Shown here piece by piece: positions 33,964 through 62,047 of a stretch of 64,000 nucleotides of DNA. The notes beneath the pieces were generated by a model that was not told the origin of the DNA, ran no database searches, and saw only the letters and a program-made list of their open reading frames with translations. The stretch is from Hyphomicrobiales bacterium. Lineage in GTDB: Bacteria > Pseudomonadota > Alphaproteobacteria > Rhizobiales > Rhizobiaceae. The number at the start of each line of letters is the position of its first letter. Within the stretch, counting starts at the first letter, position 1. Position numbers and translations under genes: made by a program. The stretch spans positions 38,188 to 102,187 of the forward strand of contig UBXM01000037.1 in NCBI GenBank assembly GCA_900469445.1, read 5' to 3'.

Positions 33964-33980
33964 CAGGTCATTCCTTCCCG

Positions 33981-42568: not shown

Positions 42569-43996
42569 TCAGATCCGAGGCGCGCGAAGCGGCATCTTTT
42601 GAGCGTCTGCCGAGATCTGTTCCGGAGAGCGAGAAGATAGTCCAAAAGCGTCTCGCAGCTTGCCTGCCGCATAGGCGCATTCGACGTTCAACTTATAGAG
42701 ATCGAAGCGCGTGTTGATTTCGTCGAAGCGTGCGGCATGCAGTTCCTGGTCGGCGTTGAGGACGTCGAGCAGCGTTCGGGTGCCGAGGTCGAGAAACTGT
42801 TTCTGATACAGATCTCGCGTTTCACGCATCATCGTCTGCCGTGACCCGAGCGATTTCAGAAGCGTGCTCAGGCTGCTGACCTGCGAGGCCGACTGGATCC
42901 ATGATCTCTGGGCGTCAAATCTTCCGACGGCGATGGCTGCGTCGGATGCCTGTGCGCCATACCGGGCGGCGTTCTGGCGGGCTCTGAAGGAGCTGCCGTT
43001 GTAAAGGTCGCTCTTTACGGTCACGCCGATCATGTAGTCGCTATCGCCGCCGCCCCATGTCTTCATTCTGGTCGTGCCTTCCAGTGCGATCGTCGGCAGC
43101 ATGTCGGCACGGGAAAGCTTGACGCGGGCGTCGGCCTCTCTCTTGCGGGATTTGGCCGCAAGAACGGTCGGCACGGTTTCCCAAACGGGTTCGGGGCCGG
43201 CGCAAGCCTTGCTTAGGGAGGAGGGGAAAGATGGGCGCAGTCGAACGTTGTTCATCTGACCGAGCAGCGAATTCAGTGAGCCCTCCCAACGCTGCTTTTC
43301 GGCATTGATTTCAAGCGCGGTGGATTGTGCGGCCTGGATGCGCGCCTGGGCCTGCAAGTTGTCCGATCGCGTGCTTGCGCCCCGATCGGTTCTGGCCGTC
43401 ACCAGTTCGGCGATGGCCGAGACGTCGTTGACCTGCTCTCTGGCGACGGCTGCAAGCCTTGCATTGCGCATGACCTCAACGGAGGCCAGCACGGTTTCCC
43501 GGATGGTATCGTCGACCGTGGCGAGAAATTCCGCGCGCCGGACATCCGAGATGGCGGATTCCGCTTCGACGCGGCCCGATACCTTGCCGAAGTCGTAGAT
43601 CATCTGGCTGGCGGTGGCATTAAGCCTCGGCGCCCAGTCCCCGCGGTCACCTTTCTGTGCGGCGAGATCGATGCCGCCTCCGATCGAGGGGAGATATCCC
43701 GAGCGTGCATCCGCAATCAGTTCGTTCTGCTGGCGAATACGCCCCGCGGCCTCCTGGATCGAAGGATGCCAGCTGACCACGCGACGGACTGCGCTATCGA
43801 TATCGGTAACCGGCGCCGGCGGCGCAATCGATCCGGTCACTTCGGGCGACGGTTTTTGCGACGATGCCGCAAGCGTCTGCGCCTTGGCTTCGGGCTGCTT
43901 TTGAGCAGCATTCCTGTGCGATGTCTGGCTGCATGACGTCTGGATGAGGGCAGCCGCTATCAATAGGCCAAGTTTGATGGTGCGACTTGAACGCAT
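42569..43996 (-). CDS. TolC-family outer-membrane channel of the type I secretion system
   Basis: This 475-residue TolC-family protein has a signal peptide ending LIQTSCSQ, which could be a weak lipobox with Cys22, so it may be acylated. Two outer-membrane efflux repeats follow (about residues 65-265 and 270-460), with VVSWHPSIQEAAGRIRQQNELIADARSGYLPSIG at the first (split) and AKSRKREADARVKLSRADMLPTI at the second. It provides the outer-membrane channel for the adhesin exporter encoded downstream. It lies 323 bases upstream of the adhesin in the same direction, and may share a transcript or have its own promoter. Confidence 0.9.
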   Translation of the reverse strand: MRSSRTIKLGLLIAAALIQTSCSQTSHRNAAQKQPEAKAQTLAASSQKPSPEVTGSIAPPAPVTDIDSAVRRVVSWHPSIQEAAGRIRQQNELIADARSGYLPSIGGGIDLAAQKGDRGDWAPRLNATASQMIYDFGKVSGRVEAESAISDVRRAEFLATVDDTIRETVLASVEVMRNARLAAVAREQVNDVSAIAELVTARTDRGASTRSDNLQAQARIQAAQSTALEINAEKQRWEGSLNSLLGQMNNVRLRPSFPSSLSKACAGPEPVWETVPTVLAAKSRKREADARVKLSRADMLPTIALEGTTRMKTWGGGDSDYMIGVTVKSDLYNGSSFRARQNAARYGAQASDAAIAVGRFDAQRSWIQSASQVSSLSTLLKSLGSRQTMMRETRDLYQKQFLDLGTRTLLDVLNADQELHAARFDEINTRFDLYKLNVECAYAAGKLRDAFGLSSRSPEQISADAQKMPLRAPRI

Positions 43997-46889: not shown

Positions 46890-48104
46890 TTGGTACATCG
46901 TTCTTCAGTCTGGGCGCAAAAGTTTAAGATTTATCGGCTCTGGTTGGGGCAAATCCCTGAATTGAATGGATCGCCGAAATTGACGCGCTATCTCGTGCTT
47001 AGATCCGATGCCACGACTTTATGTGGTGTGGAGGCTTTTACCCGTAATCTGGCTGCACGGCTGGGTTCACGCGCCGTCAGCGACGTTCTCGACGGAAACT
47101 CCCGCCGCCTGTCGGAGCGTCTGGCAGAGGTGGATGCGGTCGTCTTCAACTTTCCCATCGTTGCCTGGAAAAGGCGGCTTATCGAGCCGTTCGCAGTGGC
47201 GGCATTGGCGAAACTGAAGCGCAAGCGGGTGATTGTCGTTCTGCACGAATGGGCAAGTCTCGATTGGAAACGGCGACTGATCCTCTGGCCGGTCTTGCTC
47301 ATCGCCGACGCCATTCTCTTTTCTGCACCGGAAGTCCGGCAGGAATGGCTGGAGAGCCGTTATCCCATTGGCCGAAAATCGACCGCCATCGTTCCGATCC
47401 CCCCCAATCTTCTGCCCAGCGGGCAGGAGCAGGCGGGGCCGGCGGCGCTTGCCATTCGCGGGCTGCGTGCCAATGGGTGTGCCAGTGGGCGTACCGGTGG
47501 GCGCACCATCATCGGCCAATTCGGCTCGATCTACCCCAAAAAGAACTGCGCCGAACTTCTTGCGATCGCTCGGTCGCTGGTAGACAGGGGGCAAGAAGTC
47601 GGGGTTGCCTTTGTCGGCTCCTTCATCAAGGGCATGGACAATGTCGAGGAGGATTTCCGCAACCGCGTCGAGGCGCTCGGTCTTGCAGACCGCGTGATGG
47701 TGACAGGATATCTCGCCACGGATGAGGAAGTCTTTGCGGCGTGCCGGGAGGTCGATATCTTCTGTTATCGGTTTTCTGAAGGGCTTACCGCGCGCCGCGG
47801 CAGCGTGCTGGCGGCGGCACTGGGCGGCCGGATCGTCGTTACCAACGCACCGGCCGATCCCAAGGGGCTGGAACATCATGGCCTGTTTCAGACGCTGATC
47901 CGAAACGGCAATATCGTCGTCTGCCCGCATGATGCCGATATTGAGGCGATGGCGGAGGCCGTTCGTGGGGTGATCGGGCGCGTGCCGCCCTCGCTCGATA
48001 TCGATGCCGAGATCACGTCGCTGTGGAGAGCCATCATAGGTGAACTCGATGCCGTCGGCGGCGTCGAGAGGTCCGAAGCGCGACCGGTCGCAAGCTCCCG
48101 CTAA
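46890..48104 (+). CDS. Glycosyltransferase (GT4-like, GT-B fold)
   Basis: This GT-B protein has about 404 residues or fewer. The C-terminal half carries a GT4-like donor domain: GQFGSIYPKKNCAELLAIA, VGVAFVGSFIKGMDN, LADRVMVTGYLATDEEVFAACREVDIFCYRFSEGLTARRGS (in parts) and a clear-cut nucleotide-sugar site there. The N-terminus is poor: an in-frame TTG at 46980 (LTRYLVLRSDATTLCGVEAFTRN) may be the real start, which would shorten it by about 30 residues. It faces the DUF6492-like gene, and their stop codons overlap (CTAA). Confidence 0.8.
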   Translation: MVHRSSVWAQKFKIYRLWLGQIPELNGSPKLTRYLVLRSDATTLCGVEAFTRNLAARLGSRAVSDVLDGNSRRLSERLAEVDAVVFNFPIVAWKRRLIEPFAVAALAKLKRKRVIVVLHEWASLDWKRRLILWPVLLIADAILFSAPEVRQEWLESRYPIGRKSTAIVPIPPNLLPSGQEQAGPAALAIRGLRANGCASGRTGGRTIIGQFGSIYPKKNCAELLAIARSLVDRGQEVGVAFVGSFIKGMDNVEEDFRNRVEALGLADRVMVTGYLATDEEVFAACREVDIFCYRFSEGLTARRGSVLAAALGGRIVVTNAPADPKGLEHHGLFQTLIRNGNIVVCPHDADIEAMAEAVRGVIGRVPPSLDIDAEITSLWRAIIGELDAVGGVERSEARPVASSR

Positions 48105-48988
48105 CTCCAGAGATTGCGGGTCAGCGCCACACGCCGGATCAGGGAAGGTTCGGTCAGCGTGTGTGACTGGATGGCGATTGCGTATTGATTGTCGCCCATG
48201 CCGTCGATCAGTCGTCCGATGCCCGCCTCGTCCAATGCCGGTCCGCTCCAATAGGTGGCGCAAAGGCTCTGTTCGATAATCCTGTGGCGGCCCATGAGGG
48301 ACGGATTGCTGGCCACGCCAGTGCCGTAGAGAATATATTCGGAAAAATCCCGAGCCTTGCAGAGCGCCTTCCACCACGCAAGACCGGTCACGGCTTCAAT
48401 CCTGTCGATGATGGTATTCAGGCTCTCGCGATCCCAGACGATCATCTGGCCGATATAGTCGTCACCCGGCAGCGGCGGCTCCTGCGCATCGATAAGGCGA
48501 TAGGCATTCTTCTGCCAGACGACATGGTTCGGGCGGGTTTCGTTGACGCCGCCGAGATCGGCGTAGAGAGGCGAAAGCAGGTCACCGGCAATTCGTCCGA
48601 CGTCGAAGGGTTTGACGAAGCAATTGTCGGAATCGATGCACATGACGCGTTCGCCTGACTGCAGCAGCGCCATCGCGAGCTTTCGCAATTGCTGAACGTG
48701 CCAGCCGTAGACCGGCAAGCCCGCACCTGGCGCCCAATAATACTGGCGCCCTTTCCACTTGAGGAAATCCGGGAGCGCGTGAAGTTTGCCCGGTAGCAGA
48801 ACCGAATCCGGCAGCACGAGCCGTTTTTCATTGCCGAGCTTCGAGAAAAGCTCGAGGTCGCTATCGGCCACCAGCAGATAATGCCGGTCGTAACCGGTCA
48901 CGCAGGCATCGATTGAATCGCACAGAAGGCGACATGACTCGAAGTCCCGATAATAGGTTGGCGTAACGAGACTGACAGTGGCGGTCAT
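48101..48988 (-). CDS. DUF6492-like glycosyltransferase-type protein
   Basis: This protein of about 295 residues starts at the ATG at 48988 (MTATVSLVTPTYYRDFESCR) with GGAG upstream; the longer frame would overlap the divergent flippase gene. It has a GT-A-like layout with an early nucleotide-binding-type strand and a DSD triad (VMCIDSDNCFVKPF near residue 120) that resembles a metal-binding DxD. Other segments (GKLHALPDFLKWKGRQYYWAP, WWKALCKARDFSEYILYG) match, as I remember them, DUF6492 proteins of rhizobia. It probably transfers a sugar to the exopolysaccharide; the donor is unknown. Confidence 0.65.
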   Translation of the reverse strand: MTATVSLVTPTYYRDFESCRLLCDSIDACVTGYDRHYLLVADSDLELFSKLGNEKRLVLPDSVLLPGKLHALPDFLKWKGRQYYWAPGAGLPVYGWHVQQLRKLAMALLQSGERVMCIDSDNCFVKPFDVGRIAGDLLSPLYADLGGVNETRPNHVVWQKNAYRLIDAQEPPLPGDDYIGQMIVWDRESLNTIIDRIEAVTGLAWWKALCKARDFSEYILYGTGVASNPSLMGRHRIIEQSLCATYWSGPALDEAGIGRLIDGMGDNQYAIAIQSHTLTEPSLIRRVALTRNLWS

Positions 48989-49155
48989 TCGATGATCAAG
49001 GCTCCGGGCAAGAAGAAGCCAGACTGCCAAGGTTCGACCTAATGCTCCGTTAATCCCGTTCATGCATAGTGCTGGCGGGCGCGAATATCCGAGGATAGAC
49101 AGCCGCACCGGCATGCAGGCCTTGGCGAAATTGAGGCCGCCGGTTGGAGGTATGA

Positions 49156-50475
49156 GTGGGATTGAGGTCCAAGCACGAATTCCGGCAATTCGCCCGTCAT
49201 CTCGGATCCTATGTCGGATCGAGCGGAGCACTGCTCGCGTCGAGCGTCACCATGCTCTTGACCTTCGCGCTGCTCGCCCGTCATCTCGGCCATGAACAGT
49301 TCGCACTCAATGCGACGATCACCGCGCTGACCAATCTCGGCATCCAGGTTTGCGGTCTGGGATCACAAGAATCGCTTGTCCGGCGTGTCGCGCAGGAACC
49401 GGGTTTCTATCCCGACATGCTCGGGCATGTGCATATTCTCAATCTCGTCTCGGGTGCGGTTCTGGTGATTGCCGGCATGATCGCCATTCCGCTGATGTTT
49501 CCGGTCTCCGACCACCTGCTGACGACGCTTGTCGCTACGGCGCTGATCCTTTTTACCAACATCATCCTGCTGAAGGTCATCTGGCTCGCCACCAACAGCT
49601 ACATCGCGCATTCGCGCTTTTCGGTCGCGAACAGGATCGAATTCCTGTTCGCGATATTGCGCATGGCGGCAGCCGCCGTCAGCTGCCTCGTGTTCAACAT
49701 CACCACGGTGGCGGAATGGGCGGTTTGGAATTTTGCAGCGCATGCGGTCGTTGCGATCATTGCGCTGATCGCGATCCGCCGGCTGGGCCGCCCGAAGTTC
49801 AGGATCGTTCGCGAAGAAGTTCCGATCGGCATCATGTTCGCCAGTCAGTTCTTCTTCAAGGCCGGGCGCAGCAATGCCGACATTCTCGTGCTGAGTGCGG
49901 TGGCCGGGTCGGAAATCGTCGGCAGCTATTCGATCGCCCGCCGTTTAACGGAAGCCTCCTATATGGCGGTCGAAGCACTTAACCGGATCGTCTATCCCAG
50001 TTACGCGTCCGCGGCTCTCAGTGGCATCGGGGCGGTTCTGGGGCGGGCCAGGCAGATGCTGGTTCTGACGACCGGCATCGGTATTGCCGCCGGCCTTTTC
50101 GTCTGGATCATCACGCCATGGCTGCCGCTTCTGTTCGGCCATGAATATGTCTCGCTGTCGTGGATGGCGCGCGCCTTGTGCTGGGCGGTGATCCCGATCG
50201 CGATCAGCGCGACGGCTTTCGAAGCATTGGGTGCGTCCAGCCTGCAGAGCGTGCGGGCGAAGATCCTCAATGCCTCAAATATCATCGGCGCAGGTCTTGT
50301 GGCTCTGGCTGCCTATTACGCTGGTGTGAGCGGTGTGATCGCGACCACCTATGTGCTGGAAATCCTGATCGCACTTCTTGCCTGGCGCGCGCTTTTCCAA
50401 GCACAGAATGCGCTCGGGCGTTCATCGCAGCCTGCCGATGCCGAGCCTGAAACGGCAAAGCAGCGTACGGCCTGA
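49156..50475 (+). CDS. Polysaccharide flippase (Wzx-like, oligosaccharide flippase family)
   Basis: This 439-residue protein has about twelve membrane helices (for example ASSVTMLLTFALLARHLG, SGAVLVIAGMIAIPLMF, GIAAGLFVWIITPWLPLLFG) and matches the MATE/MviN-like polysaccharide export superfamily. The start is a GTG at 49156 five bases after GGAGG. It should flip the polyprenyl-linked repeat unit to the periplasm for polymerisation. It is divergent from the DUF6492-like gene and converges with a GT2 gene. Confidence 0.88.
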   Translation: MGLRSKHEFRQFARHLGSYVGSSGALLASSVTMLLTFALLARHLGHEQFALNATITALTNLGIQVCGLGSQESLVRRVAQEPGFYPDMLGHVHILNLVSGAVLVIAGMIAIPLMFPVSDHLLTTLVATALILFTNIILLKVIWLATNSYIAHSRFSVANRIEFLFAILRMAAAAVSCLVFNITTVAEWAVWNFAAHAVVAIIALIAIRRLGRPKFRIVREEVPIGIMFASQFFFKAGRSNADILVLSAVAGSEIVGSYSIARRLTEASYMAVEALNRIVYPSYASAALSGIGAVLGRARQMLVLTTGIGIAAGLFVWIITPWLPLLFGHEYVSLSWMARALCWAVIPIAISATAFEALGASSLQSVRAKILNASNIIGAGLVALAAYYAGVSGVIATTYVLEILIALLAWRALFQAQNALGRSSQPADAEPETAKQRTA

Positions 50476-50488
50476 CGTTTTTCTCGGC

Positions 50489-51475
50489 TCAGCTTTCGGT
50501 GATGTGTCGGCCGGCTTTCAGCGCCGGCGGGATTTCGCTGGCCTTGTAGGGCACGGGAAGAAACCCGAAGCTTGCCGTTATTCGGCCGATCGACGTCAGG
50601 ATGGGATGGGTGGCGGGCAGAAGGTGTCTTGTCCGTACCAGAAGCCCGATCGCCTTGAAGATGCTGAGGCCCAACGAAACGACGTTCTTGGCCTGAAGTT
50701 TTGCCACGACAGCCGGACCTGCCATCCGCTTGCTGTCGATGACGTAGTTGATGCTTCCGGTGCGGATCGAACGGCGCATGATCCATCTGGGTTTCGTGCG
50801 TTCCACCGCCACGGTCTCGTGAATGACCGCTTCCTCGCACCACCAGAAGATAAAGCCGGCAGCGCGGCAGCGGGCGAAGAAATCCATGTCGCCACCGCCG
50901 AGGAAGTTGAAGGCGACGTCGAACAGCATCGGCTCCAGACGGGTAAAGACATCGCGGTGGATCAGGCAGTTTCCCGTACCGTGGATGACCGGCACCTGAC
51001 GCGTCGGGCCGCTGATGAAGCCGTAAAGCGGGTGCAGGCTGACGGCCTCCGATACAGGCACGTCGAATTGTCGGATGACCGGACCGCCGACGATCCTGGC
51101 TCCGGTGCGGTTGGCTGTCGAGACCATCTGCGCCAGCCATTCGGGGCTTGCGATCTCGTCATCGTCGATCATCAGGAAATGTTGTGCAGACGCAAAACGC
51201 TCGCGGGCCTCTGTGAACGCGCGATTGATGGCGTGGCAGTTGCCCTGGCGGGTTTCGATCACGACAAGAGACGGAATACCGGAGCCGTCGAGCAGCTTGA
51301 GTGCGGATGCAGCGCCTACCGGGTTTTCGGCGTCATTTTCAACGACGACGATTGCAAAGCGAGTGCCGCCCTTTTGTGCCAACAATGATTGAAGCGTACG
51401 CGCGACGCCCTCCGGCCGACGGAAGGTCGGAATGCAGATGACGGCTTCCACCGAAGCTTTGCTTTCGTCCTGCAC
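50489..51475 (-). CDS. GT2-family glycosyltransferase
   Basis: This GT-A protein of about 328 residues has VICIPTFRRPEGVARTLQSL at the N-terminus, FAIVVVENDAEN and a DDD motif (FLMIDDDEIASPEWLAQM) near residue 105 in place of DxD. A downstream WWCEEAVIHET with possible catalytic acids follows. I chose the GTG at 51475 with GGAG eight bases upstream; the longer frame begins with a TTG and an unrelated peptide. It adds a sugar to the growing repeat unit. It reads toward the flippase gene. Confidence 0.85.
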   Translation of the reverse strand: MQDESKASVEAVICIPTFRRPEGVARTLQSLLAQKGGTRFAIVVVENDAENPVGAASALKLLDGSGIPSLVVIETRQGNCHAINRAFTEARERFASAQHFLMIDDDEIASPEWLAQMVSTANRTGARIVGGPVIRQFDVPVSEAVSLHPLYGFISGPTRQVPVIHGTGNCLIHRDVFTRLEPMLFDVAFNFLGGGDMDFFARCRAAGFIFWWCEEAVIHETVAVERTKPRWIMRRSIRTGSINYVIDSKRMAGPAVVAKLQAKNVVSLGLSIFKAIGLLVRTRHLLPATHPILTSIGRITASFGFLPVPYKASEIPPALKAGRHITES

Positions 51476-51603
51476 GCTTGGCTCTCCGGTTGTCTGTTGC
51501 GTCGCACACCCATCGCTACACGGTTCAATACGAAAGGAAATCAGCGAATACAAATGTATGTTGGGCTTTGAGTTAACATGGAGTGGAGTTCACAGAACCC
51601 GTT

Positions 51604-52905
51604 TCAAGCCTGCCGGGACTGCAGGCTTGCGCTGGCCTGCAGTCTCAATCCGAACACGGCAATGAGCATGGTGAACCAGAGAGGGCCGTTGTTGACGAAG
51701 AAAAGGTTCTCGAGGCCAGCCAGAAGGATCGAGAAGATCCAGATGCGCAGGAACAGCCGTGTCAATGTCGGATCGTTCTGCGTCGCAAAGGCCTCGCCCG
51801 CATCTCTTAAAGGCAGGATGAGAAGCCAGAGGATCATGAGTATGAGCGCAGGCAAGCCGCCATTGAGAAGCGTCTCAAGAAACGAGTTATGCGAGTGCGC
51901 GGCGAGATAGGCCCAGGATTCCGTCGTGATGTCGCGCAGGAACTCACTTCCCCACAACAGTTGGAAGCCATAGCCCATGATCGGGGCTTCGGAGATGCGC
52001 GCGAGGGCGAAAGCCCAGATCGAGCTTCTGCCGGTGAATGTTGCGTCGATCCCGAGGCTGGCCAGTAGCGAGCTGGTGGCCGGCGAGCTTGAGAGCCCGA
52101 TGAGGATGACGTTCATCGCAATCACGATGCCGATCGTGACGAGGGCGCGCAGCGGCCTGCAATGCTCGAACAACCAGGCCAATATCAACACGGTCGGAAG
52201 CATGGCGGTTGCAGTCTTGCCTCCGGCGAACAGGAGAAAAATTGCGGATAAAATCGTAACGAGCGATCCCAGCCGCGGGTAGGACGCTTTGCGCAGGTAA
52301 AGGCCGAATAGGACGAAATAGACCATGCCTGCCGCAGCGGAATTCTTGTGCCCGAAAATACCACGCCAATCCCCGGCCAGAGCCGCTTCGACTTCATCTG
52401 TGCCGTGAACCCCCACGACCGGAACGGCGAAAATGGCGAAATAACTGAGCAGAAGGACGATCAGCGTGCCGGTGGCCAGAACTCTTGCGAAGTCGCGGCT
52501 ATCGCGTGGCAACAAAAGTGCGGCATTGGCGCAGCCGCAAACGAGCAGTGCGTAGACGATCCTTCGAAACGCCGTGGCTGGATCGAAGGAGAAGAGCGAG
52601 ACGAAGCAGAGCCAGAGAATGATCAGGGTAAGCAGCACGCGCGGGCTGAAGAGTGCAGCTCTGCTCGGGTTGCGCCACAGGCTTGCAATCGCTGCCGTGA
52701 ATAGAACCACGACAACAATCTGGGTCAGAAGGCTGCCGGCGGACGGGAGGCCACCCCTGCCGTCTGAATGGGCAAAGGGTGCAAGGCCGATCCAGAAGTA
52801 GGTAAAAAGCAGGAGCAGGATCACAGAGCCAAAGCTCCATGTGGCGCGGTCGGAAGAGGTGGCCGACAACGCTCCTGCCCGAGATATCGTCCCTGCTTCC
52901 CTCAA
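51604..52905 (-). CDS. O-antigen ligase/polymerase-family membrane protein (Wzy/WaaL type)
   Basis: This 433-residue protein has about eleven helices. The family's periplasmic loop region reads GDWRGIFGHKNSAAAGMVYFVLFGLY, and a later HSHNSFLETLLNGG matches the Wzy_C domain. It is probably the Wzy polymerase or ligase of the exopolysaccharide. The annotated start is a TTG (MREAGTIS); the true start may be up to 30 codons downstream. The gene is transcribed toward the GT2 gene and is divergent from the GH10 gene. Confidence 0.85.
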   Translation of the reverse strand: MREAGTISRAGALSATSSDRATWSFGSVILLLLFTYFWIGLAPFAHSDGRGGLPSAGSLLTQIVVVVLFTAAIASLWRNPSRAALFSPRVLLTLIILWLCFVSLFSFDPATAFRRIVYALLVCGCANAALLLPRDSRDFARVLATGTLIVLLLSYFAIFAVPVVGVHGTDEVEAALAGDWRGIFGHKNSAAAGMVYFVLFGLYLRKASYPRLGSLVTILSAIFLLFAGGKTATAMLPTVLILAWLFEHCRPLRALVTIGIVIAMNVILIGLSSSPATSSLLASLGIDATFTGRSSIWAFALARISEAPIMGYGFQLLWGSEFLRDITTESWAYLAAHSHNSFLETLLNGGLPALILMILWLLILPLRDAGEAFATQNDPTLTRLFLRIWIFSILLAGLENLFFVNNGPLWFTMLIAVFGLRLQASASLQSRQA

Positions 52906-53091
52906 ACTGGTGGATCCTGTCGTGCTGCTCGAAATCTCGGTTCAGCTCAACAGGAGACCGATATACGTTAACCGCCGGTGAAAAATCTTCCTCGGGCGGA
53001 GTAATATTATCATAACGCCTCACGGCTAGCCTCCCGTTGTCCTGTCGGCGGCAGCGACAAGCGGCTCCTTCGATTGGTGCGAGAAAGATCC

Positions 53092-54150
53092 ATGCGCAGA
53101 CGGGATTTCGTTCAGGGTAGTCTTGCCGTCGCGGCACATGCAGCGCTTCAGATGCCGGCGGCCAATGCCGCCGCGCCGCCGCGGCAGATACCCTACGGTT
53201 CGGCGGTGCGCGGCGATGCGCTCGTGGATGACCCTGCCTACCGTACGGCGCTTGCCGACTACTGCCAGCTGGTCGTGCCGGAAGGCGGCTTGAAGTGGGA
53301 CACGGTGAGGCCTTCCGAGGACCGGTTCGATTTCTATGAAGGCGACAAGCTCCTCGCTTTCGCCGAACAGAACGGCATGAAGATGCGTGGCCACACGTTG
53401 ATCTGGTATGCCGCGATGCCTGACTGGACCTCCTCCATCCGCGGTGGCAAGGCGGCTGAAAAAGCGCTGACCAAGCATATCCGCACGGTGGTCGGGCAAT
53501 ATAAGGGACGAGTTCCGAGCTGGGACGTGATCAATGAGGCCATCGCCGAAGATCCGCGCGGCTCGGACTATCTGAGGCCCAATCTCTGGCTTGAGAACAT
53601 GGGCAAGGGATATATCGAAAGCGCGTTCCGTCAAGCAGCGGAAGCCGATCCGAAGGTGCAGCTCGTAATCAACGAGTACGATATCGAATGTGTCGGGGAG
53701 CAGTTCAAGAACAGACGGAATGCACTATTGCGCGTCGTGCGCGATCTTCGCGACCGTGATGCCCCAATTCATGCGGTCGGCTTTCAGGGACATCTGAAAG
53801 GCGAGCATGAAATCGACAAGGAAGGCGTGTCGTCTTTTGTCGCCGAACTGAAGGCGATGAATGTCGACGTACTGGTTACGGAACTCGATGTGATCGACAA
53901 GTTTCTGCCGTCCGACGAGAAACAGCGCGACGACGTCATCGCCGGCCGGGTTACCGATCTTCTGCAGGCGATCTCGGATGCGAACCGGCCGACGGCGATC
54001 CTGACCTGGGGTATTTCCGATCGCTATACCTGGGTGCCGATGTATTTCACCCGCGATGACGGCAGTCCGAACCGCCCGCTGCCTCTGGACCGCGATTACA
54101 AGGTGAAGCCTTTGATGAAGGTCATCGACCGCTTTACGGCTCGCGTATAG
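53092..54150 (+). CDS. Secreted GH10 glycoside hydrolase (endo-xylanase family) in the EPS cluster
   Basis: This GH10 enzyme of about 352 residues has a Tat-like signal (MRRRDFVQGSLAVAAHAALQ, twin Arg). The acid/base Glu is in SWDVINEAIAED near residue 140, and the nucleophile Glu is in VLVTELDVIDK near residue 262. GHTLIWYAAMPDW is the usual GH10 substrate strand. Although the family is named for xylanases, an EPS-cluster member such as PssW of Rhizobium leguminosarum suggests it trims the exopolysaccharide made here. It starts at the ATG at 53092 with a GAGAAAG box. The 187-bp gap upstream is a divergent promoter region. Confidence 0.9.
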   Translation: MRRRDFVQGSLAVAAHAALQMPAANAAAPPRQIPYGSAVRGDALVDDPAYRTALADYCQLVVPEGGLKWDTVRPSEDRFDFYEGDKLLAFAEQNGMKMRGHTLIWYAAMPDWTSSIRGGKAAEKALTKHIRTVVGQYKGRVPSWDVINEAIAEDPRGSDYLRPNLWLENMGKGYIESAFRQAAEADPKVQLVINEYDIECVGEQFKNRRNALLRVVRDLRDRDAPIHAVGFQGHLKGEHEIDKEGVSSFVAELKAMNVDVLVTELDVIDKFLPSDEKQRDDVIAGRVTDLLQAISDANRPTAILTWGISDRYTWVPMYFTRDDGSPNRPLPLDRDYKVKPLMKVIDRFTARV

Positions 54151-54591: not shown

Positions 54592-56031
54592 ATGAATGTG
54601 CGTTTAAAGAACATCGTTGACATACCTTTGGCGGTCGACCTAGACGGGACGCTGATTTCCACGGATCTTCTGTGGGAAAGCGTTTTTCAGCTTCTGAGAA
54701 CAAATCCGCTCTACCTGTTTCTTATTCCGATCTGGCTGTTTTCCGGCAAGGCGCGCCTGAAGACGGAGATCGCGCGTCGCGTTCCGTTTGATGCCGCTCA
54801 TCTGCCCTATCGCGAGGACTTCGTTTCCTATCTGCGTGCAGAGCGTGTTCGGGGACGTGAACTCATTCTGGTGACGGCTGCGGCCGAACCCTTTGCCAAA
54901 GCCGTGGCAGCACATCTCGGTCTCTTCAGCGCCGTCTACCACACGGATGAAGCGACCAATCTTGCGGCACATCGCAAAGCTGCGTTGCTGGCGAAACTCT
55001 ACGGCCCGCAAGGGTTCGATTATGCGGGTAATGACCGTGCGGATATCGCGGTTTTCCAGGCTGCGCGGAACGCTATCGTGGTTGCCCCGGACGCCGTCGC
55101 GGACCGGTACCAAAAAGCCCATGCGTCGATGCGCTTCGATGCCAAGCGCGCCAACATGAAGACCTATATCAAGATGCTGCGCGTGCATCAGTGGCTGAAG
55201 AATTTTCTCGTTTTCGCCTCTCCCGTGCTTGCGCATACGGTGCTCATGCCGGAGACGCTGTTTGCAACCACGCTTGCCATGGTCGCGTTTTCGTTTTCGG
55301 CTTCCGCCATCTACATCATCAACGACATTCTCGACCTGCCGCTCGATCGGCAGCATCCGACCAAACGGAACCGGCCTTTCGCCAGCGGCGCCATCTCCAT
55401 TCCTTTCGGTCTCATGGTTTCCGCGCTGCTTCTCTTAGCCACCGCTGCCATCTGCCTGCTGCTGCCATTGCAGTTTGCAGCGGTCATCGTGCTTTATTTG
55501 GTGGTCACGACAGCCTATTCGCTGGCCTTGAAGCGGATGCTTCTAATCGACGTGCTTTGCCTTGCCGGGCTCTATGCCCTGCGCATCCTCGGCGGCAAGG
55601 CGGCCACCGATCTGCCGCTGTCGTTCTGGCTGATGGCTTTCGGGCTGTTCTTCTTCCTGTCGCTGGCGCTGGTGAAGCGTTATGTCGAGCTGCGTTTTAC
55701 GACGGTGGATGTGGGAGACCGGATTGCGGGCCGCGGTTACCGTCCGGAAGATATCCATATCGTCGCCCAGAGCGGTGTCTCCTCGGCTTTCGCCGCAGCA
55801 CTGGTCCTGTCGCTTTACATTCAGTCGGAGGATATCCGGGCGCTTTACAACGAGCCTTGGGTGATCTGGCCGCTGGTGCCAATGGTGCTCTATATCAATG
55901 TCCGCATCTGGATCCTTGCTCATCGCAAGGAGCTGGATGACGATCCGGTCGTCTTCATCGCAACCGATTGGCGCAGCCAGCTGGTGATTGCGATCGGGGT
56001 TGTGCTCTTCGTCCTGGCGAGTGTGCTGTGA
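54592..56031 (+). CDS. HAD phosphatase-UbiA prenyltransferase fusion (DPPR-synthase-like)
   Basis: This fusion of about 479 residues has a HAD hydrolase (residues 10-190) with motif I VDLDGTLI, motif II ILVTAAAE and motif IV region FDYAGNDRADIAVF. An eight-helix UbiA domain (about 195-475) follows, starting YIKMLRVHQWLKNFLVF and containing NDILDLPLDRQHPTKRNRPF, the Asp-rich motif of UbiA enzymes. The NDxxDxxxDxxHPxKxxRP form matches the decaprenyl-phosphate phosphoribosyltransferase Rv3806c. The HAD part may replace the separate 5-phosphatase. I chose the ATG at 54592 after AGGGGAA; the longer frame upstream is unlikely. The next gene overlaps by one base. Confidence 0.85.
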   Translation: MNVRLKNIVDIPLAVDLDGTLISTDLLWESVFQLLRTNPLYLFLIPIWLFSGKARLKTEIARRVPFDAAHLPYREDFVSYLRAERVRGRELILVTAAAEPFAKAVAAHLGLFSAVYHTDEATNLAAHRKAALLAKLYGPQGFDYAGNDRADIAVFQAARNAIVVAPDAVADRYQKAHASMRFDAKRANMKTYIKMLRVHQWLKNFLVFASPVLAHTVLMPETLFATTLAMVAFSFSASAIYIINDILDLPLDRQHPTKRNRPFASGAISIPFGLMVSALLLLATAAICLLLPLQFAAVIVLYLVVTTAYSLALKRMLLIDVLCLAGLYALRILGGKAATDLPLSFWLMAFGLFFFLSLALVKRYVELRFTTVDVGDRIAGRGYRPEDIHIVAQSGVSSAFAAALVLSLYIQSEDIRALYNEPWVIWPLVPMVLYINVRIWILAHRKELDDDPVVFIATDWRSQLVIAIGVVLFVLASVL

Positions 56032-57368
56032 TGCAGGCGAGCCTCGACAGTTTCGGCCGTATCAGTCGCCATTCCAGGCAAGCCATTGCCTTCGAACAGG
56101 CGGTCAATGCCTTGCGCGGCGGCATGGCCGGCCGATCCGGCCTGTTGGCCTTCGGAAACGGCAAGTCCTATGGAGACAGCTGCCACAACGATGCCGGTTC
56201 TCTCGTGCCGATGCGGCAGCAGAAATCCGTGCTCGGCCTCGATCTCGAGACGGGCATCGTGGAAGCGGAAGCGGGCATCTCGCTGGAAGAGCTGATCGCG
56301 CATGTCGCTCCACACGGCTTTTTCCTGCCGGTGACGCCGGGCACCCGTTTCGTCACGCTGGGCGGCTCGATCGCCAATGACGTTCACGGCAAGAACCATC
56401 ATCGTCGCGGGACATTCGGCTGCCATGTCGAAAGCTTCGAACTACTGCGTTCGGATGGGCGGACCTATCGCTGCAGCGCGGCTGAAAATACGGATCTGTT
56501 TTCTGCGACAATCGGTGGGCTGGGCCTGACCGGTCTCATCCTGTCGGCGCGGCTGAAGCTGATGAAGGTCGGCTCGCTCGACATCGACGAAAAGGTGACA
56601 GCCTTTTCCAGCCTCGAAGGTTACTTCGATCTTGCCGCGGATGCCGATGAGGAGAACGAATATTCCGTCGCCTGGCTGGACCAGCTGGCATCCGGGAAAG
56701 CCTCCGGCCGAGGTGTGCTGATTACCGGCAATCATGCGGAGAACGGCAATTTCCGCACCGAAGGCGTCAAGGCCAAGCTCAGCGTTCCGTTCGAGCTGCC
56801 GTTTTCCGCGCTGAACCGGGTAAGCCTCGGCTTGTTCAATACGGCCTTTTTCACGGCCAACCGGCTCAAGTCCAAGCCACATCTGGCCGGTTACGGCAAG
56901 TTCTTCTATCCGCTCGACGGCGTGGGGGACTGGAACCGGCTTTATGGCCCGACCGGTCTCTATCAGCACCAGAGCGTCATTCCATTCGAGGCAGGGCGCT
57001 CTGTCATCCCGGCCATGCTCGAAGCGAGCCGCAAGGCCGGACTGTCGTCCTTCCTCACCGTATTGAAGCGTTTTGGCGATGTTGCGTCACCGGGCTTCAT
57101 GTCGTTTCCACGTCCCGGCTACACACTGACGATGGATTTTCCCAATCACGGTGCGCGGACGCTCGAGCTTTTGACGCTTCTCGACCGGATGACGCTCGAT
57201 GCCGGCGGGCGGGTCAATCCCTACAAGGATAGCCGCATGAGCGCCGAAATGTTCAAGGCCGGTTTCCCGGAATGGCTGCAGCTGGAAAAGCTCCGGGACG
57301 AAAGCTTCTGCTCTGATTTCTGGCGCCGCACGGCGCTTGCCACGGATCACCCACGAGGACGCCCATGA
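56031..57368 (+). CDS. DprE1-like FAD-dependent oxidase (decaprenylphosphoryl-ribose 2-oxidase family)
   Basis: This 445-residue FAD-linked oxidase has a PCMH-type domain with GNGKSYGDSCHNDAGS, a GFFLPVTPGTRFVTLGGSIA stretch and NDVHGKNHHRRGTFG in residues 45-130, the closest family marks being those of mycobacterial DprE1. Such enzymes oxidise the 2-hydroxyl of polyprenyl-phosphoryl-ribose to the keto intermediate on the way to arabinose. Its start (ATG at 56031) overlaps the fusion gene stop (TGATG), and its own stop overlaps the next start (ATGA), so the three genes are translated together. Confidence 0.88.
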   Translation: MQASLDSFGRISRHSRQAIAFEQAVNALRGGMAGRSGLLAFGNGKSYGDSCHNDAGSLVPMRQQKSVLGLDLETGIVEAEAGISLEELIAHVAPHGFFLPVTPGTRFVTLGGSIANDVHGKNHHRRGTFGCHVESFELLRSDGRTYRCSAAENTDLFSATIGGLGLTGLILSARLKLMKVGSLDIDEKVTAFSSLEGYFDLAADADEENEYSVAWLDQLASGKASGRGVLITGNHAENGNFRTEGVKAKLSVPFELPFSALNRVSLGLFNTAFFTANRLKSKPHLAGYGKFFYPLDGVGDWNRLYGPTGLYQHQSVIPFEAGRSVIPAMLEASRKAGLSSFLTVLKRFGDVASPGFMSFPRPGYTLTMDFPNHGARTLELLTLLDRMTLDAGGRVNPYKDSRMSAEMFKAGFPEWLQLEKLRDESFCSDFWRRTALATDHPRGRP

Positions 57369-57781
57369 AATATATCCCGTTCATCCTCTTCACGGTGCTG
57401 ACCAATGCGGCGGCGCAATTGCTTCTGAAACAGGGCATGCTGTCGCTTGGCCCGCTGAGCTTTTCGGCCGATACGATGATCCAGCGGATCTTTCAGATCG
57501 TCTTCAATCCGTGGGTCTTCTTTGGCCTTGCCACATTCGTCATCTCGATGGCGTCGCATCTCTATGTGCTGAGCAAGGTCGATCTGTCCTTCGCCTATCC
57601 TTTCCTCAGCCTCGCCTATGTCGCCGTCGCGGTTCTGGCCTGGCTTCTGTTCAAGGAAGAGCTTGGGGCGATGAAGATTGCCGGCATCGCCTTCATCTGC
57701 GTCGGCACCGTGCTGATCGCGCAGAGCGGGCACAAGGAAATACCGGACCAGACGGCGTCCATCGAACGCGCCAATTCCTGA
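57365..57781 (+). CDS. Small SMR/EamA-type membrane transporter, possible lipid-sugar flippase
   Basis: This 138-residue, four-helix protein contains TVLTNAAAQLLLKQGML, FFGLATFVISMASHLYVLSKVDLS, YPFLSLAYVAVAVLAWLLFKEEL and GIAFICVGTVLIAQ, the pattern of SMR/EamA-type small transporters that includes ArnE and ArnF. In this operon it may flip the polyprenyl-phosphoryl-pentose across the inner membrane. The start overlaps the DprE1-like stop by four bases. It has the conserved Gln/Lys at QLLLKQG and Glu in FKEEL seen in ArnE-like proteins, but the substrate is inferred. Confidence 0.8.
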   Translation: MKYIPFILFTVLTNAAAQLLLKQGMLSLGPLSFSADTMIQRIFQIVFNPWVFFGLATFVISMASHLYVLSKVDLSFAYPFLSLAYVAVAVLAWLLFKEELGAMKIAGIAFICVGTVLIAQSGHKEIPDQTASIERANS

Positions 57782-57823
57782 CTAATTCAATTCAGAACCG
57801 ACAGAACGACGGGGATTTAAACC

Positions 57824-58834
57824 ATGAGACATATCATTTTCGGCGGTGACGGTTTTGTAGGGCGTCACCTCGCACCGAGATTGCAGGCTGAAGGCCATGA
57901 GGTCATCATTGCCGACATCGCAAAGAGTGATCTGCCGCATTATGACGAGATCCGGTTCGAAAATGTCGACGTGACCGATCCGGCCTCGATCGCCAGGGTC
58001 GGCATCAAGGCCGACGACATGGTCTACAATCTTTCCGCCAAGATGCTGTCGCCCTTGCAGGTTCGCGCCAAGCGGCACGATTTCTTCTTCCCGGTCAACT
58101 ATTACGGTACCGAGAACATCATCAAGGCGATGGATCAGGCCGGTGCTGCGTCGCTCGTCCATTTCACCACCGACATGGTCTATGGCCACACCTATGTCTG
58201 GCCGCAGACGGAGGAGCATCCGGTCGCGCCGCTTGGCGAATACGGGCTTTCCAAGCTGAAGACCGAGGAACTGGCGGTCGAATGGCGCAAGCGCGGCATG
58301 AATATCTCGCTGTTTCGCCCGCGCCTGATCATCGGCCCCGGTCGTCTCGGCATCCTGTCCAAGCTGTTCAAGCTGATCGACAACAACCTGCCGGTGCCGA
58401 TGATCGGCTCGGGCAAGAACCCGTATCAATTCATCTCGGTGTTCGACTGCGCCTCTGCAGCCCATGCGGCGTTCAATGCCGGCGTGCCGAACGAGGTCTA
58501 CAATCTCGGTTCGCTCAATCCGCCGCCGGTGAGAAAGCTGCTCGGCGATCTGGTCAAGCACGCGGGCTCGAAGTCGATCCTGTTGCCGACCCCGGCATGG
58601 GCGGTAAAACGCACGCTCGACCTGTTCGACCTGATCAACATGCCGATCATGGATCCGGAACAGTATCTGATCGCCGACGAAATGTGCGTGCTCGACGTGT
58701 CGAAGGGCGAGCGCGAGCTCGGCTGGGTGCCGCAATATCGCGACGAGGACATGCTGATCGCCGCCTATTCCGAATATCGCAGGGGGCTTGCCGGCGGTTC
58801 GCAGGACAATGTCGCTCACGCCAAGGCAGCTTGA
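57824..58834 (+). CDS. Extended SDR, NAD-dependent epimerase/dehydratase family
   Basis: This 336-residue extended SDR has a cofactor motif GGDGFVGRH at residues 8-16, acidic residue Asp31 (IIADIAKSD) favouring NAD, a catalytic Thr in HFTTDMVYG and a Tyr/Lys pair in EYGLSKLKTEE. The C-terminal lobe is typical of sugar-nucleotide epimerases. In this operon it may reduce the keto-pentose-lipid, the step done by DprE2 in mycobacteria, or act on a sugar nucleotide. It lies 42 bases after the small transporter and 13 before the aminotransferase. Confidence 0.85.
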   Translation: MRHIIFGGDGFVGRHLAPRLQAEGHEVIIADIAKSDLPHYDEIRFENVDVTDPASIARVGIKADDMVYNLSAKMLSPLQVRAKRHDFFFPVNYYGTENIIKAMDQAGAASLVHFTTDMVYGHTYVWPQTEEHPVAPLGEYGLSKLKTEELAVEWRKRGMNISLFRPRLIIGPGRLGILSKLFKLIDNNLPVPMIGSGKNPYQFISVFDCASAAHAAFNAGVPNEVYNLGSLNPPPVRKLLGDLVKHAGSKSILLPTPAWAVKRTLDLFDLINMPIMDPEQYLIADEMCVLDVSKGERELGWVPQYRDEDMLIAAYSEYRRGLAGGSQDNVAHAKAA

Positions 58835-58847
58835 AGAGGGAAGAACG

Positions 58848-60323
58848 ATGGCCACTGTAGTCAGCCTCAACAAACACGATGACAATGCGATGATCGATCT
58901 TTCCGCCAATCCGGTCCGCGAGCCGGTCGCCAAGCCGGCGCTTCTCTCGGTCGAGGAGGCCAAGGCTCTCGACGTGGCGAAGATGACGGATCTCTTTACC
59001 CGTCACCTCAATCCCGGCCAGCTTCATTTCATGAAGCTGCTCGGCTTCCACAAGGTGAAGATCGAGCGTGCCGAAGGCATGTATTATTACGACCAGAACG
59101 GCCGCAAGATTCTCGATTTCTTCGGCGGTTTCGGTTCGCTGGCGCTCGGCCACAATCACAGCCGTGTTCTCGATGCGCGCCGCAAGTTCCAGGATGAGCA
59201 CCGCCAGGAGATCGCCATCGCCTTCATGTCGCAATATGCGACCGCTCTGGCGCATAACCTTGCGGCCTGCTCGCCGGGCGAACTCGACATGGTCTTCCTC
59301 GGCTCTTCCGGTTCGGAAGCGATGGAGGCGGCGATCAAGGTAGCCGAACGCGCTGCCGGTCCGAAGCGGCCGAAGATCGTCTATGCGGAAAACTCCTTCC
59401 ACGGAAAGACCAAGGGCGTTCTGTCGATCACCGACGGTTCGCTTTATCGCGGCGAGTTCAAGCTTACCGACAATACGGTGAAGGTTCCGTTCGGCGATAT
59501 CGATGCGATCGAAAACGCCTTCCGCAACGATCCGGAAATCGGCGTGATCGTCTTGGAAACGGTGCAGGGCGGCGGCGGCATCATTCAGGCCGAAACAGCC
59601 TTCTGGAAACGCCTGCGCGAACTCTGCGACAAGCATGGCGTGCTCTGGGTCGCCGATGAAGTACAGTGCGGTTTCGGCCGTACCGGCAAGTTCTACGCGT
59701 TCGAGCATCATGGCGTCGTGCCGGATGTGACGGCGCTGGCCAAGTCTCTCGGCGGCGGCAAGTCGGCCGTCGGTGCGATGATCGCCAAGCGCGACGTCTA
59801 CATGAAGGCCTATGGCACGCCGAAGACGGCGATGATCCATGCGATGGCGACATTCGGCGGCATCGGCGAAGCCTGCGTGACGGCGATCGAGGCGATGAAC
59901 GTGCTCTATGACGAGCACCTGATCGACAATTCGGCGAATACGGGTGATTATCTGTTGCAGCGCCTGAAGCAGCTTCAGGTCCGCTATCCTTCGCTGCTGA
60001 AGGAGGTGCGCGGTCAGGGCATGATGGTGGGCATCGAGTTCCACGATCTGTCGAAGACCATGCCGCTGGTGCTGCGCCCGGTCGTCGCCATGCTGGACGA
60101 CAAGCTGAAGGGCTCGCTGCCGGGCTTTATCGGCAGCCATCTCCTGCGCGATCACGGCGTGCTGGTGGCCTTTACCGAATATAATCGCAACGTCATCCGC
60201 CTCGAACCGCCGCTGATTGCAGAACGCAGCCATGTGGATGATTTCATCACGGCGCTCGACGAGGTGATGTCGCGCGGCATCGTGCGGATCGTCAAGGATT
60301 TCGTGGCGGCACAGGTGAAGTAA
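58848..60323 (+). CDS. Class III PLP-dependent aminotransferase
   Basis: This 491-residue protein of aminotransferase fold class I, class III has YYDQNGRKILDFFGGFGSLALGHNH (split), FLGSSGSEAMEAAIKVA for phosphate binding, AENSFHGKTKG, the Asp of WVADEVQCGFGRTG and the PLP Lys in TALAKSLGGGKSAVG. The chain is 60 to 80 residues longer than ornithine aminotransferase types, with an extra N-terminal segment (LTRHLN, MKLLGFHKVKIERAEGMYYYD area). It starts at the ATG at 58848 after GAGGGAAG, the last gene of the operon. Its substrate is unclear: a keto-sugar lipid or a free metabolite are both possible. Confidence 0.88.
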   Translation: MATVVSLNKHDDNAMIDLSANPVREPVAKPALLSVEEAKALDVAKMTDLFTRHLNPGQLHFMKLLGFHKVKIERAEGMYYYDQNGRKILDFFGGFGSLALGHNHSRVLDARRKFQDEHRQEIAIAFMSQYATALAHNLAACSPGELDMVFLGSSGSEAMEAAIKVAERAAGPKRPKIVYAENSFHGKTKGVLSITDGSLYRGEFKLTDNTVKVPFGDIDAIENAFRNDPEIGVIVLETVQGGGGIIQAETAFWKRLRELCDKHGVLWVADEVQCGFGRTGKFYAFEHHGVVPDVTALAKSLGGGKSAVGAMIAKRDVYMKAYGTPKTAMIHAMATFGGIGEACVTAIEAMNVLYDEHLIDNSANTGDYLLQRLKQLQVRYPSLLKEVRGQGMMVGIEFHDLSKTMPLVLRPVVAMLDDKLKGSLPGFIGSHLLRDHGVLVAFTEYNRNVIRLEPPLIAERSHVDDFITALDEVMSRGIVRIVKDFVAAQVK

Positions 60324-60350
60324 AGCCGCTGCCAATCAAGAGAATAGGGG

Positions 60351-60384
60351 AGGCCGGGACTTGTGCCCGGCCTTCACTGTTTTC
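60351..60384 (+). terminator. Terminator after the aminotransferase gene
   Basis: An 8-bp stem (60351-60358 with 60366-60373, core GGCCGGG/CCCGGCC) and 7-base loop are followed by TTCACTGTTTT. It lies between convergent genes, with the membrane-protein stop immediately beyond it. Confidence 0.75.
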
Positions 60385-62047
60385 CGGCAAGAATATCGGG
60401 ACGCAGAAGAAGGTCCCAGCAGGGATGGACCGACACGACCTGACGGTCTTTCAGCGCTTCCTTATAGTGGGCGAAGAGCAGGCGGCGCCCGGTCGTCAGG
60501 GGGCATTTCGGCTGCAAAACTGCCGCCGTCTCCTTGATCGAGCGGATTGTTTGCTCATTGAGGGGCGGAACGGTCCGGTAAGGGTCCGCGCCGATCTGGA
60601 TATGCTTCGTTGCGTCACGATTCAAAAGCCAGGGGAAGGGATTGGTGAAGTCGAGGTTCATCAGGCTCTCCAGCCGGACGTTGTTCTGCGCTTCGAATGC
60701 CTTCAGGGATTGCACGAGGCTGTTGGCCGAAATGATCCAGTAGAGCTGGAAATCCAGTTCCGAATAATACTGCCAGCTCGGCAGCTGGCCGTGTGCCGAC
60801 AGGTCCGCATAGGCGGACGCATAGTTCTGGTAGTGAGTTTCGAGATAGAATGCCCGATCGATGATGTCCTGCCGCTGCAGGACTTGTTGCATGTTCTTCA
60901 TGTCGGGCAGGTGCAATTGCCGATAGGACGGGGCAACGACCGCCGCGCGTAGCGTCTTGTGCGCCACCTTGGTGAAAGTCGGGATGACGCAGAACGCCGC
61001 CAGCACGATGAACGCCATCTTCGGTCCCTGGTCGAGAAGCCTGATGCGTTCGAAGATCATCAGCAGAACCGGCCAGATGAAGATGAATTCCTGGCTGCCT
61101 GTATTCTGCGTCTCGTAAATCGCGCCGCCTGCCATGACGACCGAGAACCACCAGAAACTACGATCGAAGAAGCGGATCGTCCTGTCGGTGCGGGTCCAGT
61201 CCAGCCATATCAACAGCAAAGTCAGCAGCCCCGCCGGCAGAAGTACGTCGAGCTTCAGCGATGCGACGGTCAGGAAGCGGGGAAGGAGCAAACCCTCATT
61301 TATCCCGGCGAGCTGCACGATTTCGAGAACGTAGCCTGAGACGAACCCGGTTGTCAGCTCGGCGATGACGAGCGGGATCAGAAAGAGCAGGACGGAAATG
61401 ATGCAATAACGCAGCGAGATGCGGCCGGATAACAGCGTCAGCAGGCAGAAAAGCCCACCGACCAGAAAACCCGTTATCTTGGTCAGAAACAATGCCAGCA
61501 TGGCCGCGGCGACCAGTACCGCCAGTCGACGACCGTCTTTAAGGAAAACCAGACCGCTGGTCAGAACGTAAAGAAAGATGACGCCGTGGCGGTTGTAGAT
61601 GCCGAACCCATCCAGTGTGGGAGCCGGATGATAGGCGGCGACATTGGACGGGAAAATGGCGAATACGAGGAAGGGTACGAGCAGCGCAAAGGCATAGGGT
61701 CTGTTGCGCCTGGAAAGATCGGCAAGGACGAGAGCAAGCAGGGGGGCGGCGACCGGCAGGATGCACCATTGCGCCAGAAGAAGCGGCTGCGCATTGTCGA
61801 ACAGCTTTAACCCTGCCGCGAAAAGATAATAGGGGAGGGGACCGACCGGGGTCGAGAAGTCGACGTTCGGGATCTGGCCCATCCATATCCGCTGTGCGGC
61901 ATCGAGATAGAGATAGGTGTCCCAGTACATCGGCCCAATCGGCGTCGCGATCGGGATCAGCAGAAGCAAGATCAACGGGACAAAGGCAGCGTATATCCAG
62001 AACACGGGCCGCGAGAAAACGCTTCGGAAAGTGGATACGCCAGCCAT
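60374..62047 (-). CDS. Multi-pass membrane protein of GT-C glycosyltransferase appearance
   Basis: This 557-residue protein has about ten to twelve helices. The early acidic periplasmic loop (IGPMYWDTYLYLDAAQRIW, residues 32-50) with an Asp after the first helix is where GT-C enzymes hold their catalytic acid. A soluble C-terminal region (about residues 370-557) is rich in aromatics. GT-C enzymes use polyprenyl-phosphoryl sugars as donors, which would fit the adjacent DprE1-UbiA operon that may make such a donor. The exact family could not be recognised. It converges with the aminotransferase gene and has its own promoter region with a 16-bp palindrome. Confidence 0.6.
   Translation of the reverse strand: MAGVSTFRSVFSRPVFWIYAAFVPLILLLLIPIATPIGPMYWDTYLYLDAAQRIWMGQIPNVDFSTPVGPLPYYLFAAGLKLFDNAQPLLLAQWCILPVAAPLLALVLADLSRRNRPYAFALLVPFLVFAIFPSNVAAYHPAPTLDGFGIYNRHGVIFLYVLTSGLVFLKDGRRLAVLVAAAMLALFLTKITGFLVGGLFCLLTLLSGRISLRYCIISVLLFLIPLVIAELTTGFVSGYVLEIVQLAGINEGLLLPRFLTVASLKLDVLLPAGLLTLLLIWLDWTRTDRTIRFFDRSFWWFSVVMAGGAIYETQNTGSQEFIFIWPVLLMIFERIRLLDQGPKMAFIVLAAFCVIPTFTKVAHKTLRAAVVAPSYRQLHLPDMKNMQQVLQRQDIIDRAFYLETHYQNYASAYADLSAHGQLPSWQYYSELDFQLYWIISANSLVQSLKAFEAQNNVRLESLMNLDFTNPFPWLLNRDATKHIQIGADPYRTVPPLNEQTIRSIKETAAVLQPKCPLTTGRRLLFAHYKEALKDRQVVSVHPCWDLLLRPDILAGKQ

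Follow-up and report, generated by a model that had tools for sequence, protein, structure and literature searches.

Mycobacteria make decaprenyl-phosphoryl-arabinose (DPA) with Rv3806c, Rv3807c, DprE1, DprE2 and Rv3789, a pathway outlined in PMC11127046. The same report (Kelly et al. 2024, PMC11127046) describes three-component systems of Citrobacter youngae O1 and O2 (ORF12-15), in which the HAD-UbiA fusion ORF15 is an enzyme type shown biochemically, and links a gene set resembling UbiA, SMR (small multidrug resistance) and SDR (short-chain dehydrogenase/reductase) to xylofuranose. Fusion of the phosphatase with the transferase is already established and is not new. For rhizobia, PMC5080398 describes a DPA-like route, NoeCNHOP Nod-factor arabinosylation in Azorhizobium and Rhizobium sp. 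IRBG74. Here we describe a module of six genes at 54592-62047 of a 64,000-nucleotide stretch (the window) from a Hyphomicrobiales bacterium (Rhizobiaceae; GCA_900469445.1, contig UBXM01000037.1), and we found that it carries a class III aminotransferase (AT3) and no DprE2. Judging from sequence comparison, we propose with moderate confidence that the module makes a lipid-linked aminodeoxy-pentofuranose derived from phosphoribosyl pyrophosphate (PRPP). This would be a second natural route to lipid-linked amino-pentoses, with DprE2 swapped for an aminotransferase and DprE1 retuned.

Comparison of the module with described pathways

Five of the six genes lie on the + strand and one is convergent on the - strand, in an assembly of 6.29 Mb (completeness 99.99, contamination 4). 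The + strand frames overlap or almost abut (TGATG at 56029-56033, ATGA at 57365-57368 and a 13-base gap before AT3). The features are:

54592-56031, + strand: HAD-UbiA fusion, predicted polyprenyl-phosphate phosphoribosyltransferase (UbiA part) and 5'-phosphatase (HAD part); NF006088, 8j8j and motifs
56031-57368, + strand: DprE1-like FAD oxidase of the AT3-linked type (T368, N397, Y399); NF053785, 4aut and pocket signature
57365-57781, + strand: SMR/EamA-type four-helix protein, predicted flippase; PF00892, ArnF below cut-off, four hydrophobic segments
57824-58834, + strand: extended SDR (epimerase/dehydratase type); PF01370, GGDGFVG, YxxxK
58848-60323, + strand: AT3, class III pyridoxal phosphate (PLP) aminotransferase; PF00202, PigE 4ppm, PLP lysine motif
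60349-60375, + strand: terminator-like hairpin 3' of AT3; consensus scan only
60374-62047, - strand: GT-C-type glycosyltransferase (predicted), convergent with the operon; fold match of the predicted structure

All proteins named in the original prediction (HAD-UbiA, DprE1-like, small transporter, SDR and the opposite GT-C-like protein) are present, and its gene list for the operon holds as far as it goes, having overlooked the aminotransferase inside the span.

The HAD-UbiA protein scores 619 bits to NCBIfam NF006088 (cut-off 351), and its UbiA part matches the solved mycobacterial phosphoribosyltransferase 8j8j (E 3e-30; E-values and Fisher values throughout are uncorrected for kinship), in keeping with the Rv3806c likeness noticed earlier. 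Its HAD motifs are DLDGT at residue 16 and GNDxxD at residue 146, and its UbiA motifs are NDxxDxxxD at residue 244 and KRYxE at residue 362. The motif residues that PMC11127046 reports as tested in the Citrobacter enzyme are present. By these residues, the protein is predicted to be of the polyprenyl phosphoribofuranose synthase type. Matches to NF006088 above its cut-off occur in 73/297 genomes of the order.

The transporter (138 aa) matches EamA PF00892 at 34 bits, has four hydrophobic segments, and falls below the curated Arn flippase cut-offs, with 58 bits to ArnF (the best NCBIfam; cut-off 99) and 40 bits to ArnE (cut-off 92). The SDR matches PF01370 at 124 bits, with GGDGFVG at residue 7 and YxxxK at residue 140; it has relatives in many phyla, and none was tied to Citrobacter ORF13 among the best 120 of 625 proteins. 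We rejected this SDR as DprE2, since it is of the extended epimerase type whereas DprE2 is a classical SDR. AT3 matches PF00202 at 288 bits, its AKSLGGGK carries the expected PLP lysine, and its nearest solved relatives are PigE (4ppm, E 7e-77) and putrescine aminotransferase. The protein at 60374-62047 matched nothing in Pfam or NCBIfam at E 0.001. Its AlphaFold model has a mean predicted local distance difference test score (pLDDT) of 93.0, and GT-C enzymes head the fold lists with ArnT first, so a structure search bears out the earlier GT-C reading and the protein is predicted to be a GT-C-type transferase.

With the mycobacterial pathway as described in PMC11127046, the window has in common a UbiA phosphoribosyltransferase, a DprE1-type oxidase, an SMR-type flippase and a GT-C enzyme; it differs in that the phosphatase is a fused HAD domain, DprE2 is missing, the DprE1 pocket is altered, and AT3 and the extended SDR are present. 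Since there is no DprE2, classification as a DprE1/DprE2 arabinose pathway fails. With the Citrobacter systems, the window shares a HAD-UbiA protein with the tested residues, a small flippase and a GT-C enzyme, and the O2 system also has an extended SDR (PMC11127046); the window adds the DprE1-like oxidase and the aminotransferase. The noe genes, invoked earlier as a rhizobial precedent for arabinosylation, are a real one: likened by description rather than by sequence, theirs is likewise a rhizobial DPA-like route, but the Noe proteins are separate and the account in PMC5080398, so far as it covers them, mentions no aminotransferase. The Pur10/Pur4 pair, again likened by description, has in common oxidation followed by transamination on a ribofuranose ring, and differs in its nucleotide substrate and in acting at C3, as reported in PMC11641026. 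The Arn pathway for 4-amino-4-deoxy-L-arabinose (Ara4N) works alike, with a lipid-linked amino-pentose, an SMR flippase and a GT-C enzyme (ArnT, the best fold match of the window GT-C). The starting compound of Arn is UDP-glucuronate and its aminotransferase belongs to another class; the window route would start from PRPP. By analogy, the module would combine the Citrobacter three-component system with a donor of the Ara4N type.

AT3, DprE2 and the DprE1 pocket across related loci

We compared 102 loci, comprising the neighborhoods of 78 HAD-UbiA/UbiA places and 24 of 48 relative loci (the other 24 hold no DprE1 and were left out). With a threshold of at least 150 bits, which excludes L067 (135 bits; DprE1 truncated by the contig end), a DprE1-like protein was found in 58 loci. 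AT3 is present in 29 of these 58 (27 also with the SDR), none of which has DprE2 within 3 kb, and DprE2 is present in 27, none of which has AT3. For the three DprE2 genes that we checked, scores to NF053786 are 149-192 bits (cut-off 250), and DprE2 ranks second among the families matched, behind PRK07102. The odd loci, with neither gene nearby, are L084, whose genome (G274) has SMR-SDR-AT3 elsewhere, and L117, whose genome (G043) has no AT3 orthologue, a single DprE1 and, standing alone, a DprE2-like gene that scores 196 bits. G043 keeps the DprE1 and SDR of the module.

The window locus has no DprE2, and in the window's own genome the DprE2 model reaches 74.5 bits at best, versus 178-196 bits in five DprE2-type controls; hence, we rejected a DprE2 elsewhere in this genome. 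In 14 AT3 genomes, all matches to the DprE2 model are at most 85.3 bits. The original prediction of a lipid-linked pentose pathway with a fused phosphatase, flippase and GT-C enzyme holds by homology as a UbiA/DprE1 type. Its D-arabinofuranose product does not, as DprE2 is missing from locus and genome and relatives have the aminotransferase in its place, although the accompanying words 'or a variant' accommodate an amino-pentose.

These patterns recur in a hold-out of 69 new AT3 loci, made up of 63 genomes (about one per genus) out of the 104 in the family sample that newly showed AT3, leaving out the other 41, and 6 new genomes of the order sample. The hold-out loci contain SMR in 69 cases, SDR in 67, HAD-UbiA in 66, DprE1 in 62 and DprE2 in 0. 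With genome-wide scoring of at most 30 first-look candidates per genome, 65/69 had no DprE2 model match at E 1e-26, and all five DprE2-type controls and G043 had one.

The oxidase itself distinguishes the two kinds of locus. The window protein matches DprE1 in the PDB (4aut, E 5e-70) and scores 348 bits to the DprE1 equivalog NF053785, below its cut-off of 500; DprE2-linked relatives are also under this cut-off, so that the cut-off alone does not separate the two types. Across 59 aligned DprE1 proteins, just three columns carry different fixed residues in the two groups (conserved to at least 90% among the AT3-linked and at least 85% among the DprE2-linked proteins), and looser thresholds give six columns at 80/80% and nine at 70/70%. 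The three are window residues 368, 397 and 399 (residue 1 being the codon at 56028), which align to Cys387, Tyr415 and Ala417 of mycobacterial DprE1; the neighboring Lys418 is kept. Cys387 is placed in the catalytic pocket by PMC6128881, and Tyr415, Ala417 and Lys418 are listed among the pocket contacts in PMC9525719. Positions 368, 397, 399 and 400 read T, N, Y and K in all 62 hold-out DprE1 proteins. Over the first set and the hold-out, N397 occurs in 91/92 AT3-linked proteins and Y397 in 27/27 DprE2-linked ones.

Gene order (HAD-UbiA, DprE1, SMR, SDR, AT3) is kept in 17/17 named relatives from Rhizobium, Agrobacterium, Devosia, Falsochrobactrum, Brucella and other Rhizobiales, some of them metagenome-assembled genomes, and the GT-C gene is present in 14 of the 17. 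The HAD-UbiA protein is 90-92% identical in the nearest named relatives, Rhizobium wenxiniae, R. smilacinae and two more Rhizobiales. In distant relatives, SDR and AT3 are 80-87% identical to those of the window, versus 60-70% for HAD-UbiA and DprE1. Using an AT3-only profile model (A1), we found AT3 in 7/398 genomes of a phylum sample (all within the window's order), in 21/397 of an order sample (ten family codes), and in 106/199 genomes and 63/109 genera of the window's family. DprE1 occurs in 60/397 genomes of the order sample, in 21/21 with AT3 versus 39/376 of the others (Fisher 1.9e-19). AT3 linkage as a local accident was rejected by the order in 17/17 relatives, the family survey and the 69 hold-out loci.

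AT3 relatives 81-86% identical also occur in Brucella (for instance at L045 and L048), classical species included, where they are annotated generically as 'aspartate aminotransferase family protein', 'ornithine--oxo-acid transaminase' or 'PigE'; L045 (Brucella pseudintermedia) has the complete module. The Brucella envelope papers PMC10787603 and PMC5767591, in the portions available, name no amino-pentose in Brucella. Searches of the open-licence literature gave no description of this gene set or of its proposed product among the matches listed, and 'aminotransferase', 'Rhizob' and 'Brucella' are absent from the main text of PMC11127046.

Other combinations of these genes were also seen. In L070 and L073 (Helicobacter) and L135 (from the window's own order), the same extended SDR accompanies UbiA and SMR while DprE1 and AT3 are missing; these sets are possibly of a xylofuranose type. 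Many HAD-UbiA loci (L097-L100, L104, L106, L109, L113, L118, L121 and others) have no DprE1 and encode, close by, a small protein resembling GtrA and a membrane protein of 430 aa (clusters c8 and c11, which have no NCBIfam match), and are possibly ribofuranose systems with other transferases. HAD-UbiA, DprE1 and DprE2 are joined by another extended SDR and a FAD/NAD(P)-binding oxidoreductase-like protein in L132, L137, L138 and L152, perhaps a further pathway variant.

Predicted product and alternatives

In the pathway that we propose, an aminodeoxy-pentofuranose would be built from PRPP on polyprenyl phosphate in the cytoplasm. The DprE1-like oxidase would turn the ribofuranose into a keto-pentofuranosyl lipid, with C2 the likeliest site of oxidation by analogy to mycobacteria. 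AT3 would then aminate the carbonyl, at the point where DprE2 would instead reduce it and yield arabinose, as the replacement, the linkage and the pocket change suggest. The extended SDR may determine the stereochemistry of a different carbon, although a few loci do without it. The SMR protein would then flip the lipid-sugar and the GT-C enzyme would transfer the amino-pentose to a surface acceptor. Because AT3 requires a carbonyl and all AT3 genomes searched for DprE1 proved to have one, amination of the DprE1 2-keto product is the simplest account. In five genomes (G161, G788, G830, G783 and G824), AT3 coexists with a DprE1 whose pocket is unchanged and nothing matches DprE2, which favors C2; C2 is likelier than C5 or C3 as the amine site. 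Since the SDR of L070, L073 and L135 stands with UbiA and SMR in loci lacking DprE1 and AT3, it probably acts at another carbon.

Several observations weigh against this proposal. The AT3-linked DprE1 proteins, those of L084 and L117 among them, all lie on one side of one branch (support 98/81), so that the exclusion of DprE2 counts as few independent events. At E 1e-26, four of the 69 AT3 genomes in the hold-out contain a gene resembling DprE2 (G814, 198 bits; G911, 176; G836, 139; G827, a marginal 102); in G911 and G836 this gene adjoins their DprE1, and in G814 it is present besides the module. Seven of the 69 hold-out loci lack DprE1, and each of these genomes has one elsewhere, six with a DprE2-type pocket and one with a changed pocket next to HAD-UbiA (L236). 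Such exceptions may reflect two pathways sharing the 2-keto intermediate, or an AT3 that uses another carbonyl. In addition, the changed pocket could mean a different oxidation site.

The module might instead make plain lipid-linked D-arabinofuranose or another neutral pentofuranose, with the SDR reducing the DprE1 keto product in place of DprE2 and AT3 serving another substrate, which we consider unlikely. DprE2 is missing, the operon encodes no further dehydrogenase besides the oxidase and the SDR, the SDR accompanies AT3 in 27/29 AT3 loci, and PMC11127046 presents SDRs and DprE1/E2 as determining the pentose in known systems; but four AT3 and DprE1 loci have no SDR (L082, L136, L205 and L229), and for L082 and L136 it is missing genome-wide as well (completeness 100 and 91). 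L082 lies at the base of the AT3-linked group and has AT3 with an unchanged pocket. Moreover, the SDR of L070, L073 and L135 occurs without DprE1, and DprE2 is excluded by AT3 and not by the SDR alone. An accessory role for AT3 in making another amine, unrelated to the lipid-linked sugar, is highly improbable: broad-specificity families are common among class III aminotransferases, but this one has a fixed place after the SDR, is exclusive with DprE2 and is tied to the DprE1 pocket.

Other positions of the amine are doubtful to differing degrees. Class III aminotransferases mostly act on terminal aldehydes and mostly make terminal amines, which speaks against amination at C2 and lends some weight to C5. 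A 5-amino-5-deoxy-pentofuranose would arise if, through the altered residues 368, 397 and 399, the oxidase came to act on the C5 hydroxyl that the HAD domain exposes, and if AT3 aminated the aldehyde, and PigE and putrescine aminotransferase as nearest solved relatives of AT3 fit this; we regard it as quite unlikely, for AT3 is paired with an unchanged-pocket DprE1 and no DprE2 in the five genomes given above, and G043 combines a changed DprE1 with a DprE2-like gene. Adjacency of SDR and AT3 likewise leaves some weight on C3, where the SDR would oxidize and AT3 aminate to give a 3-amino-3-deoxy-pentofuranose with DprE1 acting separately, much as the Pur10/Pur4 pair is thought, according to PMC11641026, to act in puromycin biosynthesis. 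SDR and AT3 also stand together in 6 hold-out loci where the only DprE1 is elsewhere and has an unchanged pocket. Set against this are the four AT3 loci that do without the SDR and the presence of DprE1 in 21/21 AT3 genomes, and we judge amination at C3 a little more doubtful still than at C5.

If the proposed aminodeoxy-pentofuranose route is right, a nitrogen-bearing sugar joins the lipid-linked pentofuranose pathways, and the occurrence of a DprE1-type enzyme without DprE2 in many Rhizobiaceae is explained. The product would be a cationic pentofuranose, functionally like Ara4N, on a so far undescribed envelope molecule, which points to a surface decoration, probably cationic and not yet described, in bacteria that live in soil or with plants and animals. 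Genes of the DprE1 family, a known drug-target family, should not be called 'arabinose' genes without checking the partner gene, and the N-P-Y pocket motif offers a quick marker for the AT3-linked type.

Neighboring genes in the window

The hairpin at 60349-60375, between the operon and the GT-C gene, is one of 12 sites given by the terminator consensus scan in the region, versus 7.6 expected. Adjoining the module at 46890-54150 is a polysaccharide-type cluster that encodes GT4-like, DUF6492, GT2, Wzy_C-type and GH10 (xylanase-family) proteins, along with a likely Wzx-type protein without a Pfam match; genes like these also adjoin the module in the Devosia relatives. Farther upstream, 31702-42245 encodes a protein of 2754 aa, with an adjoining ABC transporter. 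The N-terminus of this protein is of the BapA type, and some 25 Big_6 Ig-like domains are present. Together with an outer-membrane efflux protein at 42569-43996, this region looks like a type I secreted adhesin locus.

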